Part shown: positions 13,032-26,152 of the stretch, in pieces
How positions within the stretch are numbered: position 1 is the first letter of the stretch
How the letters are laid out: the number at the start of each line of letters is the position of its first letter
Assembly (NCBI RefSeq): GCF_014131695.1
Contig: NZ_CP036346.1
Location: 434,001 to 498,000 of the forward strand
Length of the DNA: 64,000 nucleotides
Source: Thomasclavelia ramosa DSM 1402
GTDB taxonomy: Bacteria > Bacillota_I > Bacilli_A > Erysipelotrichales > Coprobacillaceae
Direction: 5' to 3'
Program-made: the position numbers and the translations under genes
Notes under the pieces: generated by a model
The model's input: the letters and a program-made list of their open reading frames with translations, nothing else
Told to the model about the DNA's origin: nothing
Database searches by the model: none

Positions 13032-13055
13032 GGCACTCCTCACGCAGTGCCTTTT
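13032..13055 (+). terminator. Intrinsic terminator after the moron
   Basis: GGCACT (13032-13037) pairs with AGTGCC (13046-13051), with an 8-nt loop and TTTT. It starts one base after the stop codon of the membrane protein. Confidence 0.85.
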
Positions 13056-13060
13056 ATTAT

Positions 13061-13135
13061 GGCAGGATATAGCAAGTAGCAGCTTACCAGGGTCCTTTCC
13101 TGGAGTTGGTGGTGCAATTCCACCTCCTGCAACCA
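13061..13135 (+). ncRNA. tRNA-like structure with encoded CCA end
   Basis: The 75 nt fold like a tRNA. Acceptor arms GCAGGA (13062-13067) and TCCTGC (13125-13130) pair 6 bp. T8 is present. The D-like arm is AGC/GCT with an 8-nt loop lacking GG. The anticodon arm CCAGG-GTCCTTT-CCTGG has a 7-nt loop with T33 and triplet CCT. A 4-nt variable region follows. The T arm GGTGG-TGCAATT-CCACC has a 7-nt loop keeping C56 and A58 but with G at 55. The 3' end is A plus CCA. The missing GG in the D loop, T at 37 and G55 argue against a normal tRNA-Arg(CCU). I read it as a tRNA-mimic RNA or a decayed tRNA. Confidence 0.55.
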
Positions 13136-13148
13136 AATTGAATATTGT

Positions 13149-13174
13149 AACCTTTGCAGTGCAGAGGTTTTTTT
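13149..13174 (+). terminator. Intrinsic terminator upstream of the packaging genes
   Basis: AACCT (13149-13153) and AGGTT (13165-13169), with inner TGCA/TGCA pairing, are followed by seven T. This is the third terminator between the early regulator and terminase, so late transcription must either start after it or read through. No clear promoter is seen between here and 13196. Confidence 0.8.
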
Positions 13175-13432: not shown

Positions 13433-13858
13433 ATGACCGAAAAACAAAAGATATTTGCAGATGAATATTTGATTGATCTAAACGGCACCAGGGCATATAA
13501 AGCTGCCTATTCTAATATCAAGAGCGATAATGCTGCTGCAGTTAGAGCAAATAAACTTTTGAAGAAAAAAGAAATCTGGGATTATATTCAGCAGCGTCTG
13601 GATGAAATCGCCAGTAAACGTGTTGCTAAACAACAGGAAGTCATGGAATATCTAACTTCAGTAATGCGTGGTGAATCAACTTCGAGTGTACTGGCCATGT
13701 GCGGTGACGGCATGCAGGAGGTTATTGAGAAACCGCCTGATGAAAAGGAAAGTCTAAGGGCTGCTGAACTATTAGGGAGACGTTATGGAATGTGGACTGA
13801 AAAGGTTGATGTTACTTCCAATGGCAAAACGATGATAGTTGATGATATAGATGGCTAA
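13433..13858 (+). CDS. terS: Terminase small subunit
   Basis: 141 aa from ATG 13433 after GTGAGGTG; a GTG at 13424 is in frame but overlaps the ribosome site. MTEKQKIFADEYLIDLNGTRAYKAAYSN and LRAAELLGRRYGMWTEKVDV are the Terminase_2 signature. It recognises the packaging site and recruits the large subunit. It overlaps terL by 8 bases. Confidence 0.92.
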   Translation: MTEKQKIFADEYLIDLNGTRAYKAAYSNIKSDNAAAVRANKLLKKKEIWDYIQQRLDEIASKRVAKQQEVMEYLTSVMRGESTSSVLAMCGDGMQEVIEKPPDEKESLRAAELLGRRYGMWTEKVDVTSNGKTMIVDDIDG

Positions 13859-15146
13859 AAAAGTTAGTTTGAAGTCAATAATTGGTCCTGCGTTTTGGGA
13901 TGTGCATAAACTGATTAAGGAGTGCGAATATACCCATTACTGGTTAAAAGGTGGTCGAGGGTCTCTTAAATCATCATTTATAGGAATTGAAATTCCTTTA
14001 GGCATTATGAGAGATGCACAAAATGGCCTAATGTCTAATGCAGTTGTTATTAGAAGGGTAAAGGATACTTTGAGAGGTTCAGTATATGAACAGATCAAAT
14101 GGGGTATTTATATGCTTAACGCTCAGGAGGATTGGGAAATACCTGAATCTAAACTACAAATGACATATAAGCCAACAGGACAGGTTATTTTATTCAAGGG
14201 TGCTGATAACCCAAAGAAACTTAAATCTACAAAGGTATTTGTCGGATATGTGAAATATGTATGGTATGAAGAATGTGATGAGTTTGAATCCTACGATAAG
14301 ATCAGGAATATTAATCAGTCTCTTTTGCGTGGTGGTCCTGAATATTGTGTATTCTACTCGTTTAATCCTCCTGAAAGTCAAAGAAACTGGTGTAATAAGC
14401 AAGTCCTTATCAAAAGACCAGATACTTACATAAGTCATACTACTTATCTTCAGGCGCCGAGAGAGTGGCTTGGCGAGCAGTTTCTTATTGAAGCGGAGCA
14501 TTTAAAGGTTATTAATGAAGAAAAGTACAATCATGATTATCTTGGAGAAGTTACGGGCACTGGCGGTGAAGTGTTCACTAATCTTGATATTAGAGAAATC
14601 AGTGATGATGAGATTGCAGTATTTGATCGTTTGAAGAACGGACTTGATTTTGGTTATGCCGGTGATCCATTAGCTTATTTAAAAATGAATTATGACAAGA
14701 CGAGAAGACGTCTTTTTATTTTTGGTGAGGTTTATGGTACACGTCTTTCAAACAAGAAAGCAGTAAAGAAAATAAAAAAACTAAATCCTTTAAACAAATT
14801 AGTTACAGCAGATAGTGCTGAACCTCGTACAATTAACGAATTCAAGTTGTTGGGATTAAATATCGTTGGTGCAAAGAAAGGGCCTGACAGTGTAGAAAAC
14901 GGGATTAAATGGCTTCAGGATCTAGAACAGATAATTATAGACCCCACACGATGTCCTAACGCTGCTAGAGAGTTTAATGACTATGAAATTGAAAAGGATA
15001 GGGAGGGAAACTTAAAAGGTGAATTTCCTGATAAGAATAATCATACGATTGATGCAGCTCGTTATGGATGTGAAACAGATGTTATTAGAAATAAAGCAAG
15101 AGCAGGTAAAAACCGCTCTAAATATACAAATCAAGGAGGTAGCTGA
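13851..15146 (+). CDS. terL: Terminase large subunit, PBSX type
   Basis: 431 aa. Walker A GGRGSLKSS (residues 34-42); Walker B-like KYVWYEECDEF near 137-145. The nuclease domain has LDFGYAGDPLAYL, VTADSAEPRTINEFK and NHTIDAARYG, supplying the acidic metal ligands. It is the ATP-driven DNA packaging motor and headful or site-specific nuclease. The length is normal for the PBSX/SPP1 type. It shares one base with the portal start. Confidence 0.95.
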   Translation: MAKKVSLKSIIGPAFWDVHKLIKECEYTHYWLKGGRGSLKSSFIGIEIPLGIMRDAQNGLMSNAVVIRRVKDTLRGSVYEQIKWGIYMLNAQEDWEIPESKLQMTYKPTGQVILFKGADNPKKLKSTKVFVGYVKYVWYEECDEFESYDKIRNINQSLLRGGPEYCVFYSFNPPESQRNWCNKQVLIKRPDTYISHTTYLQAPREWLGEQFLIEAEHLKVINEEKYNHDYLGEVTGTGGEVFTNLDIREISDDEIAVFDRLKNGLDFGYAGDPLAYLKMNYDKTRRRLFIFGEVYGTRLSNKKAVKKIKKLNPLNKLVTADSAEPRTINEFKLLGLNIVGAKKGPDSVENGIKWLQDLEQIIIDPTRCPNAAREFNDYEIEKDREGNLKGEFPDKNNHTIDAARYGCETDVIRNKARAGKNRSKYTNQGGS

Positions 15147-22632: not shown

Positions 22633-23007
22633 ATGGAAGAAAATAAAAGAATCCCATGGGCTACGTGGGAAGTCGATGGAGTTGAGTATAAATTAAAACT
22701 CACAACAAGTGTAATTACTAAACTTGAAGAACAGTTTAAGACTAATCTTGTTAACGTCCTGGATAATGGTGTTCCAGCGTTAAAGATTATGCTTACAATT
22801 ACACATGGTGCTATGCAAAAATTTCACCACGGTATCAAATATAAGGATGTAGAAGAAATGTTTGAAAAATATGTGGATGAGGGAGGATCACAAACTGCAT
22901 TCATGACAGATGTGTTTTTCCCGATTTATCAAGCGTCGGGTTTTTTCTCTGGTTCAATGGCAGAAATGATGAGCGAGAAATTGGACGAAGCCAAAGAACA
23001 ACTGTAA
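22633..23007 (+). CDS. Tail assembly chaperone, gpG-like (0-frame product)
   Basis: 124 aa from ATG 22633 after AAGGAGGC. WEVDGVEYKLKLTTSVITKLEEQFKTNLVNVL is typical of the tail assembly chaperone of Gram-positive siphoviruses. The 3' part contains a slippery sequence (22938-22947), so a fraction of ribosomes makes the longer gpGT form. Confidence 0.8.
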   Translation: MEENKRIPWATWEVDGVEYKLKLTTSVITKLEEQFKTNLVNVLDNGVPALKIMLTITHGAMQKFHHGIKYKDVEEMFEKYVDEGGSQTAFMTDVFFPIYQASGFFSGSMAEMMSEKLDEAKEQL

Positions 23008-23390
23008 CTAATATATCAGACTTAATAAATGGGATTTACCCAAATGCAGTTGACTGCGGGATAGATCCTTTTTATTTTTGGGAACTAAGTTTAGATGAAA
23101 TCAAGGATATTATTGATTCTTTTAATCGAAAAGAGATAATGAAACAAAAACAACGGGCTATAGATAACTCTATTCTGGCTGACCAAATCATCAGAGGAAT
23201 TGGATTATTATTTTCTCAAAAAGAAGACAATGTTGAAATTAAGCAAATATGGGATTACTATCCTGACTTATTTAAGGAAGAAAAGAAAAAAGCAGAGGAG
23301 CAAAAAGAAATAAACGAATTAGAGGAATTTAAAGAAAAAAGAAAAAGGTTCGCTTATAACCATAATAAACAGATTGGGGCTGATGACTAA
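22633..23390 (+). CDS. Tail assembly chaperone gpGT by -1 programmed frameshift
   Basis: The -1 frame is open without stops from the slippery site to TAA at 23388. Its product includes DLINGIYPNAVDCGIDPFYFWELS and DIIDSFNRKEIMKQKQRAIDNSI, the usual T-extension with a lysine-rich end. The fused product links tube subunits to the tape measure during tail assembly. The fusion fraction cannot be told from sequence. Confidence 0.75.
22938..22947 (+). promoter_or_regulatory. Programmed -1 frameshift slippery site
   Basis: In the gpG frame the codons read TCG GGT TTT TTC. This gives two overlapping X-XXY-YYZ heptamers: G-GGT-TTT and T-TTT-TTC. Slippage by -1 on either enters the open T frame. It sits about 60 nt before the gpG stop codon, as expected for the lambda gpG-gpGT mechanism. 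Confidence 0.7.
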
Positions 23391-23470
23391 GGACAGTAGA
23401 AGAATTAAAAGTAATAATCAACGCTGAAACAAAGCAGTTTAGAGATGAACTTGCAAAAGTTCAAACTCAA

Positions 23471-26152
23471 ATGAAGTCAGCTACCCAGAATGTTACTGCG
23501 CAGACATCTAAAATCAAATCAGCTATATCAGGTATAAAATCAGCACTTGTAGGATTAGCGGTTGGAACTGGACTGTTAAAACTTGGTAAAGAGGCTTTAC
23601 AGGTTGCAAGTGATCTTACTGAAGTGCAGAACGTTGTAGATGTAGCGTTTGGCTCCATGGCGTGGAAAGCTGAAAAGTTTTCTAAATCAGCACTTGAAGC
23701 ATTTGGGATGAGCGAGTTAAGCGCCAAGAAAACATCGGGCACTTACATGACTATGGCTAAAAGTGCCGGTATAAATGAAAACGCAGCCAGTGATATGGCG
23801 GTCACTTTGGCAGGTTTAACAGGTGATGTCGCATCATTTTATAACATATCTCAAGATCTTGCTGATGTGCGTTTAAAATCTGTTTTTACAGGTGAGACAG
23901 AAACTTTAAAAGAGCTAGGTGTTGTAATGACTCAAACAAATCTCCAGGCTTATGCATTGTCACAAGGTATTAATAAAAATATAAGTGATATGAATCAGGC
24001 AGAGCAAACAACTTTAAGATATAACTTTGTTTTGGATAGATTAGCCTTTGTTCAAGGCGATTTCGCAAGAACAAGCAGCAGCTGGGCTAATCAAATTCGT
24101 ATCCTTCAGGAACGATTTAAACAGCTTTTGGGGATTATCGGAAACGGCTTGATTGCCGCATTAACGCCTGTAGTACAGTTTTTGAATATGATTATTGGAA
24201 AACTGATTACATTTGCGAATGTTGTAAGTGCAGTTTTTGGTAGGTTATTTGGCAAGAAGTCGGCAGGACAGCAGGCATCGAATGGTTTTACTTCTGCTAG
24301 TAACGCTGCAAAAACAGCAACAGCTTCTACAGGTGGACTAAATAATGCATTAAAGGGTACAGAAGGTCAAGCCAAGAAAACGGCTAAGGCGTTAGGTTCA
24401 TTGGCCGGGTTTGATGAATTAAATACAATCAGTGCGAGTGATTCTAGTTCTGGTAGTGGTGGCTCTGGCGCTGGTACCGGAGGTGGCGGATATGCCATTG
24501 ATCCAATCGACTGGGGCAGTGCGTTTGAGGAGCCGGATACGAGCGGTATTGAGGCTACTGTTGATAAGGTGATGGTCTATGTCAATAGGCTTAAAGAGTT
24601 TCTCAAGACCAATGCTCCTGTCATTACAAGTCTGTTATCTGGAGTTTTAGCGGGCTTTGTTGCTTTTGAGGTGATCAAAAATTGGGCCGCATTAACGGGC
24701 CCAATAAAAAATTTATTTACTAATATAGGTGCATTATTTGCTTTATTCAAGGATGTTGGGGTAATTGAAACATTGAGTGTTATGCTTACCGGATTAAATA
24801 CTCCAATGCTTGCAATTGTAGGTGTTATTACAGCTGTAACCGCAGCACTTGTTTATTTATATCAGACTAGTGAGTCTTTTAGAAATCTTGTGAATGATGC
24901 GGTAGGTGCTTTATTAGGAATACTTCAGAATTTTTATACAAGCTGCCTTTTACCAATTTTTGATACGCTGGTAATGCTTTTTAATACAGTGCTGCTCCCA
25001 TTGGGGAATTTATTAACAGATGTATTTTTAACAGTAGTAGAAGCTATAGCAAGCATTGCTTTAGCATTTTGGACTAACATTCTTGCCCCGATTGCGGATT
25101 TTCTTGTCAGTGTTTTAGGAATAGCAATACAAGCTGTGTGCGATATTCTTCAGGGATGGATGCCGGCTATTAATACTGTTATTGAAACTTTATCAAAGTT
25201 ATGGAATACAATGCTAAAACCTATTGTCGAATTTATAAAGACAGCGTTTATTACGATATTTGAAATTGCTGGCTCTGTTATTAAAACCGTTGCCGATATT
25301 ATTCTTGGTGCATTTCAAGTGGTAGCTGATTTCTTTGTTGGAATCTTTACACTAAATATGAGTGATACATGGGAGAAGGTTTGTAAGATATTTAGCAATG
25401 CATGGGATAGTATCTGTGAAACATTTGCGCCTTTAGGTGAATGGTTTGGGCAGCAGTGGGAAAATGTTAAAACTGCATTTTCTGATGTTGCGGAATGGTT
25501 TGGAACTATATTCGATCATGCATGGGACAATATATGCGGTGCTTTCAGCAGAACTGGGGAGTTTTTCAAAGGCGTATGGAACAATATTACTGATGCATTT
25601 GGAAATATTGTGGACTGGTTCAAGGGCAAATTCAGCGATGCATGGACAGCAGTTAAAAATGTATTTAGTACAGGAGGTGCTGTATTCGATGGTATCAAAG
25701 ACGGTATTCTAAATGGCTTAAAGGCTGTTGTAAATGCAATTATTAAAGGAATCAATAAAGTAATTAAAATTCCATTCGATGGTATAAACAGTGCATTAAA
25801 ATCAATAAAAAAAGTAAGTATTTTAGGACTTAAACCTTTTGACTGGATTAGCACGATAAGCGTACCACAAATTCCTTTGCTAGCCGAAGGAACAGTGGTA
25901 AACAAACCAACTTTAGGTATTTTTGGTGAGGCAGGTACTGAGGCTGTAATTCCATTGAAACGTAATACCCAGGGACTTGATCTGATTGCTGAAAAATTAG
26001 CAGATAGATTATCTTTTGATGGGGATAGTGGAAATGGAGCAACTTATGTCATTAATTTTGTTTTGGAAAATGGGAAGGTACTGACCAAGATGGTAATTGA
26101 TAATATTAAAGAATATGAGGTACAAACTGGTAAACCAGTGTTTGATTATTAA
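23471..26152 (+). CDS. Tail tape measure protein (probable lost start codon)
   Basis: 893 aa from the first available ATG. The N-terminal region is helical; a Gly/Ser-rich linker near residue 325 follows; then a long hydrophobic helical region, a Trp-rich repeat zone (AEWFGTIFDHAWDNI-like units, about 650-740), and the end VNKPTLGIFGEAGTEAVIPLKRN, the normal tape measure C-terminus. It sets tail length. The same frame is open from 23390 and encodes TVEELKVIINAETKQFRDEL, the expected true N-terminus, but the codon at the start position is AGG, not ATG. No ribosome site precedes 23471. Confidence 0.85.
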   Translation: MKSATQNVTAQTSKIKSAISGIKSALVGLAVGTGLLKLGKEALQVASDLTEVQNVVDVAFGSMAWKAEKFSKSALEAFGMSELSAKKTSGTYMTMAKSAGINENAASDMAVTLAGLTGDVASFYNISQDLADVRLKSVFTGETETLKELGVVMTQTNLQAYALSQGINKNISDMNQAEQTTLRYNFVLDRLAFVQGDFARTSSSWANQIRILQERFKQLLGIIGNGLIAALTPVVQFLNMIIGKLITFANVVSAVFGRLFGKKSAGQQASNGFTSASNAAKTATASTGGLNNALKGTEGQAKKTAKALGSLAGFDELNTISASDSSSGSGGSGAGTGGGGYAIDPIDWGSAFEEPDTSGIEATVDKVMVYVNRLKEFLKTNAPVITSLLSGVLAGFVAFEVIKNWAALTGPIKNLFTNIGALFALFKDVGVIETLSVMLTGLNTPMLAIVGVITAVTAALVYLYQTSESFRNLVNDAVGALLGILQNFYTSCLLPIFDTLVMLFNTVLLPLGNLLTDVFLTVVEAIASIALAFWTNILAPIADFLVSVLGIAIQAVCDILQGWMPAINTVIETLSKLWNTMLKPIVEFIKTAFITIFEIAGSVIKTVADIILGAFQVVADFFVGIFTLNMSDTWEKVCKIFSNAWDSICETFAPLGEWFGQQWENVKTAFSDVAEWFGTIFDHAWDNICGAFSRTGEFFKGVWNNITDAFGNIVDWFKGKFSDAWTAVKNVFSTGGAVFDGIKDGILNGLKAVVNAIIKGINKVIKIPFDGINSALKSIKKVSILGLKPFDWISTISVPQIPLLAEGTVVNKPTLGIFGEAGTEAVIPLKRNTQGLDLIAEKLADRLSFDGDSGNGATYVINFVLENGKVLTKMVIDNIKEYEVQTGKPVFDY

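Follow-up and report, generated by a model that had tools for sequence, protein, structure and literature searches.

The prophage of Thomasclavelia ramosa DSM 1402 carries a gene upstream of its terminase genes that most likely encodes an initiator-type tRNA rather than a decayed tRNA or a tRNA mimic. With a probability of about 90%, sequence comparison indicates that the phage has a functional initiator tRNA in which the anticodon was changed from CAU to CCU and which would start virion genes at AGG codons. At the level of sequence, this reading is carried by a covarying fold, initiator features, and a position mostly 5′ of the terminase small subunit gene (terS), together with phage genes that miss canonical starts, an anticodon that matches their start codon, and the absence of AGG starts from tRNA-free phages.

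Structure and Genomic Setting of the tRNA Gene

The window, i.e., the whole analyzed stretch of 64,000 nucleotides (NZ_CP036346.1, positions 434,001 to 498,000), is part of a prophage within one contig of the 3.25-Mb genome. The tRNA gene occupies positions 13061-13135 of its forward strand (GGCAGGATATAGCAAGTAGCAGCTTACCAGGGTCCTTTCCTGGAGTTGGTGGTGCAATTCCACCTCCTGCAACCA) and was assigned from its fold, homology, and covariation. The acceptor stem GGCAGGA/TCCTGCA contains a G1.A72 mismatch and is followed by discriminator A73 and an encoded CCA, the 5-bp anticodon stem closes the loop GUCCUUU with U33, anticodon CCU (13094-13096), and U37, the 5-bp T stem closes the loop UGCAAUU (G55), and the D loop is without GG. 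Intrinsic terminator-like hairpins lie on the same strand 5′ (13032-13051) and 3′ (13149-13169) of the gene, and approximately 300 bases downstream follow terS (13433-13858, forward strand; PF03592, 1.7e-25), with an ATG start in this phage, and the terminase large subunit gene (13851-15146, forward strand; PF04466, 2.4e-36). The anatomy given in the initial annotation, a tRNA-like RNA with four arms, encoded CCA, CCU anticodon, T37, G55, no D-loop GG, and a position-1 mismatch between two terminators 5′ of terminase, was therefore upheld in the sequence and, for the tRNA-like arms, by homologues and covariation. The three meanings it had attached to this anatomy (phage tRNA mimic, decayed tRNA-Arg, and packaging or processing signal) did not prove the best explanations, as the position-1 mismatch is an initiator hallmark and the anticodon matches the start of a virion gene.

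The minimum free energy fold recovered the acceptor, anticodon, and T arms without a canonical D arm, and at -27.5 kcal/mol (z -2.2; 5 of 200 shuffles equally good) such folding by itself is only suggestive of a tRNA structure. ARAGORN made no call on the element and a genome-wide RF00005 search did not detect it; Rfam returned no match at the gathering score nor at E<=10.

Conservation and Covariation in Related Prophages

A DNA search of related genomes identified homologues that were 74-90% identical (E 3e-21 to 3e-8). The relatives include Clostridiales bacterium VE202-01 from the same genus and Candidatus Stoquefichus massiliensis from the same family. Relatives found through TerS contained a related tRNA immediately 5′ of terS and pattern scans added members adjoining other terminase types, the location being mostly directly 5′ of terS. 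An alignment of six members had 93.7% of pair cells paired, with compensatory change in nine pairs compared to 3.2 in shuffles, and the alignment of 17 members had 94.4% of stem cells paired and compensatory change in 16 of 21 pairs, with shuffled and slid controls all far lower. Conserved, covarying arms 5′ of terS in related prophages, which the initial annotation had named as the check on its structure, settle from the alignments that the element is not a chance fold.

Several homologues were outright tRNAs according to ARAGORN, which named them Arg(CCU), Lys(CUU), and Ser(GCU), and the anticodons across relatives comprised CCU, CUU, GCU, and CGU. Most CCU members carry U37 and the anticodon loop CUCCUUA, the corresponding loop in the window being GUCCUUU. 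Among cultured phages, a nucleotide search returned a roseophage tRNA-Met and short matches only, and a TerL-based scan of genome contigs for related loci found none. The model R2 was unspecific, scoring cellular fMet tRNAs of other families at approximately 75-79 bits, and no prevalence figure is therefore claimed. A same-genus genome contained a truncated copy (L010, 1501-1528) in which a 28-base 5′ piece of the element at 93% identity was followed by unrelated AT-rich sequence.

Initiator-Type Features

The initiator hallmarks considered were the 1:72 position, the anticodon-stem G-C pairs, and R11:Y24, following published reviews (PMC4611024; PMC11497404). Position 1:72 was non-Watson-Crick in 15 of the 17 members (U-A and U-G in the other two), and the mismatch was kept while its bases differed (G.A, A.A, C.A, and G.G). 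G30-C40 was present in 16/17 members and R11:Y24 in 13/17 including the window. The full set of three G-C pairs at 29-31:39-41 was restricted to some members, such as L005 with its retained GGG/CCC, as 29:41 was A-U in 12/17 (A29-U41 in the window) and 31:39 was variable. The best match of the family model R1 in the window genome after the element itself was the host's own fMet tRNA (58.9 bits). The element thus has the cloverleaf with covarying stems of bacterial initiator tRNAs and shares with bacterial tRNA-fMet the non-Watson-Crick 1:72, G30-C40, mostly R11:Y24, and A73-CCA; it differs in being phage-encoded, in the U37 of most CCU members, in often missing the three G-C pairs, and in its anticodon. 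As this anticodon is not CAU (CCU in the window; CUU, GCU, or CGU in relatives), the class assigned is initiator-type and not tRNA-fMet. The Watson-Crick 1:72 pair and purine 37 of an elongator tRNA-Arg(CCU) are replaced in the window by G1.A72 and U37.

Many CAU initiator-like tRNAs with GCAGGA/TCCTGC acceptors were observed in viral contigs (e.g., L148, L151, and L196). They share the acceptor stem and the 1:72 mismatch with the element but have a CAU anticodon and go with ordinary start codons, and they appear to be the pool that gave rise to the non-CAU forms.

Proposed Start Codon of the Tape-Measure Gene

The tail tape-measure gene (23390-26152, forward strand; phrog_1535, 8e-169) comprises 920 codons when read from AGG, and is the one AGG-start gene found in the window. 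ATG, GTG, and TTG are absent for 27 codons, the first canonical start being an ATG 27 codons in. The proposed AGG start (23390-23392, forward strand), 10 kb 3′ of the tRNA gene, is complementary to the anticodon CCU and stands in the context TGA-CTA-AGG-ACA-GTA-GAA-GAA-TTA. It has only a weak Shine-Dalgarno (SD) sequence (GGGG), and as its first base is also the last base of the UAA stop (23388-23390) that ends the tail-chaperone extension (UAAGG), stop-start coupling is probable. The start position of homologous genes varied with the tRNA: the Ca. Stoquefichus prophage with a GCU tRNA reads CTA-AGC-ACA-TTA-GAG-GAA and phage G105 with a CUU tRNA reads AAA-AAG-ACA-TTA-GAA-GAA, compared to ATG-ACT-TTA-GAA-GAG or TTG-ACA-TTA-GAA-GAA in tRNA-free relatives and ATG in a family relative too. 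A second homologous tape-measure pair had AGG in G103 (CCU) and AAG in G107 (CUU).

Region 22633-23390 holds the tail-chaperone gene and an overlapping start-less ORF (22881-23390), a layout that is the same in G105 and G108. This ORF was rejected in all three phages as a gene with a non-canonical start because it is the extension of the tail chaperone produced by programmed frameshifting at a T-rich slip site (GGGTTTTTTC). At the downstream junction, the Stoquefichus homologue has UAAGC where the window has UAAGG. Three further tape-measure homologues (L543, L545, and L595) have ATT where the near relative L542 has ATG, and may use an upstream GTG or an ATT start.

These start positions bear on the interpretation of the element as a phage tRNA mimic. 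In many members the loop includes CUCCUU, which is identical to the anti-Shine-Dalgarno sequence of the 16S rRNA, and the full loop CUCCUUA complements UAAGGAG, such that the RNA might act as a regulatory decoy that binds SD sites. A decoy for anticodon nucleases is also conceivable, as altered anticodon loops in phage tRNAs are reported to evade these enzymes (PMC10264068). A mimic of either type is nevertheless very improbable: it predicts unchanged start codons, whereas CUU, GCU, and CGU loops misfit the SD sequence and yet the tape-measure start in those phages shifts to the fitting codon, and AGG lies 3′ of SD sequences at start spacing in place of the ATG of homologues.

Still a little less probable is a tRNA-Arg(CCU) in decay or carried as cargo, which would serve, or would formerly have served, as an elongator for AGG codons. 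The ARAGORN names of the homologues would suit such an origin, as would the lack of tRNA-Arg(CCU) among the 27 host tRNAs recovered, a list that is not exhaustive. Against this, compensatory changes preserve the stems, the 1:72 mismatch conserved with differing bases is a trait of initiators and not of elongators, and the anticodons are non-random, matching the AGG, AAG, or AGC starts of the same phage.

Candidate AGG Starts Across Phages

Genes without normal starts were sought in ten tRNA-carrying phages and the window, and the tRNA-carrying phages contained late ORFs in which a good SD sequence was followed by AGG. Among late ORFs of nine CCU phages without an SD-supported ATG, GTG, or TTG, AGG occurred at SD spacing 27 times compared to 0.65 expected from codon usage, the scan being simple and custom-made with SD rules chosen on this first set while exploring, before the validation phages were fetched. 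A whole-phage rerun gave 25 AGG starts (0.97 expected) in these nine phages, 27 (1.63 expected) in six validation CCU phages, and 2 (1.31 expected), i.e., no excess, in twelve tRNA-free relatives; phages within the sets are partly related, so that P values overstate independence. In a motif scan, the new loci whose CCU initiator-type tRNA was genuine all (7/7) had AGG-start late genes, and the five hits that proved to be something other than initiator tRNAs had no convincing ones. The contrast between carriers and tRNA-free phages makes it just as improbable as tRNA decay that the AGG genes are started otherwise, by host fMet-tRNA at AGG or a neighboring rare codon or by readthrough, with the tRNA unrelated. 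The window tape measure, with its overlapping upstream stop and weak SD sequence, would accommodate such a route, but the start codon shifts along with the anticodon. The suggestion of a packaging or processing signal was set aside, since the anticodon matches the non-canonical start of the virion gene or genes of the phage.

The AGG-start genes of relatives encode terminase, portal, protease, capsid, tail, and endolysin proteins as well as the tape measure, and PHROG matches of the capsid, tail, protease, endolysin, and terminase proteins start at residue 2-6. In phage G138, which is without the tRNA and has an 81% identical capsid protein, the portal, capsid, and tail genes start with ATG. 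The base at -1 was A at 27 of 32 AGG starts compared to 65 of 164 canonical starts (Fisher 2e-6). One CCU phage (G013; L007/L530-L531), with its tRNA near the contig end, had no AGG-start gene in the 23.9-kb contig. Two candidate AGG/AAG starts were dropped as unreliable, the G107 portal having a GTG available and G102_26496 an ATG in both gene and ortholog.

A CAU initiator reads GUG by first-position wobble. In the phage with a CGU initiator-type tRNA (G110; L382/L527-L529), the tape-measure gene and the next gene are without canonical starts and have GCG rather than ACG at the start position, a weaker case in which the codon would fit the anticodon only through the same wobble.

Proposed Mechanism

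The tRNA would be transcribed with the late region, matured, and charged, and the charged tRNA may be formylated. Its initiator features suggest that it enters the P site of the ribosome in the role of an initiator, where pairing with AGG would enable initiation at a codon that host ribosomes do not use. The predicted target in the window phage is the tape-measure gene, and in relatives also the terminase, portal, protease, capsid, tail, and lysis genes. As the tRNA heads the late cluster, virion production would need the phage's own tRNA. U37 is unusual in tRNAs. In most CCU members it could pair with an A just 5′ of AGG, as in the window, which makes a fourth base pair, A(-1)-U37, plausible.

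Charging with Arg would be expected from the anticodon CCU. The GCU variant has no long variable arm, which SerRS needs; its charging by SerRS is therefore doubtful, and the proposal does not account for the charging of all variants. They might all be charged by one non-cognate route. Benefits to the phage might be a lock on late genes in the lysogen, escape from an attack on host initiator tRNA, or denial of genes to other phages. A more extensive scheme, at somewhat less than even odds, is a swappable initiation code in which a private initiator tRNA, a first residue other than Met, and a four-base A-AGG signal read via U37 would make late proteins tRNA-dependent.

Comparison with Known Systems and Significance

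Engineered initiator tRNAs such as a UAG-start initiator (PMC4611024) likewise have an altered anticodon that directs initiation to the matching non-AUG codon, but they are man-made, whereas the phage tRNA is natural, targets virion genes, and its anticodon and start codons have apparently co-evolved. Stop-codon recoding by phages with suppressor tRNAs (Borges et al. 2022, via PMC10879173; code 15, PMC9523058) also has a phage tRNA that alters codon meaning for late or lytic genes in a standard-code host; it involves stop codons and elongator-type tRNAs, compared to start codons and an initiator-type tRNA here. These two systems were what the literature search returned, and no initiator tRNA occurring in nature with an anticodon other than CAU or a private start codon was found in a search with incomplete coverage (most subscription journals and preprints lay outside it), which is weak evidence of novelty.

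If the proposed role is true, gene callers would misplace the starts of tape-measure, capsid, and lysis genes in such phages or overlook these genes altogether. These tRNAs would also give biotechnology a ready-made set of orthogonal initiators, and the real requirements of MetRS, formyltransferase, IF2, and IF3 would become testable. Bacteria are taken to choose their start codons through a single CAU initiator; the phage tRNA would constitute a natural private start code, and codon reassignment would then include start codons as well as stop codons.
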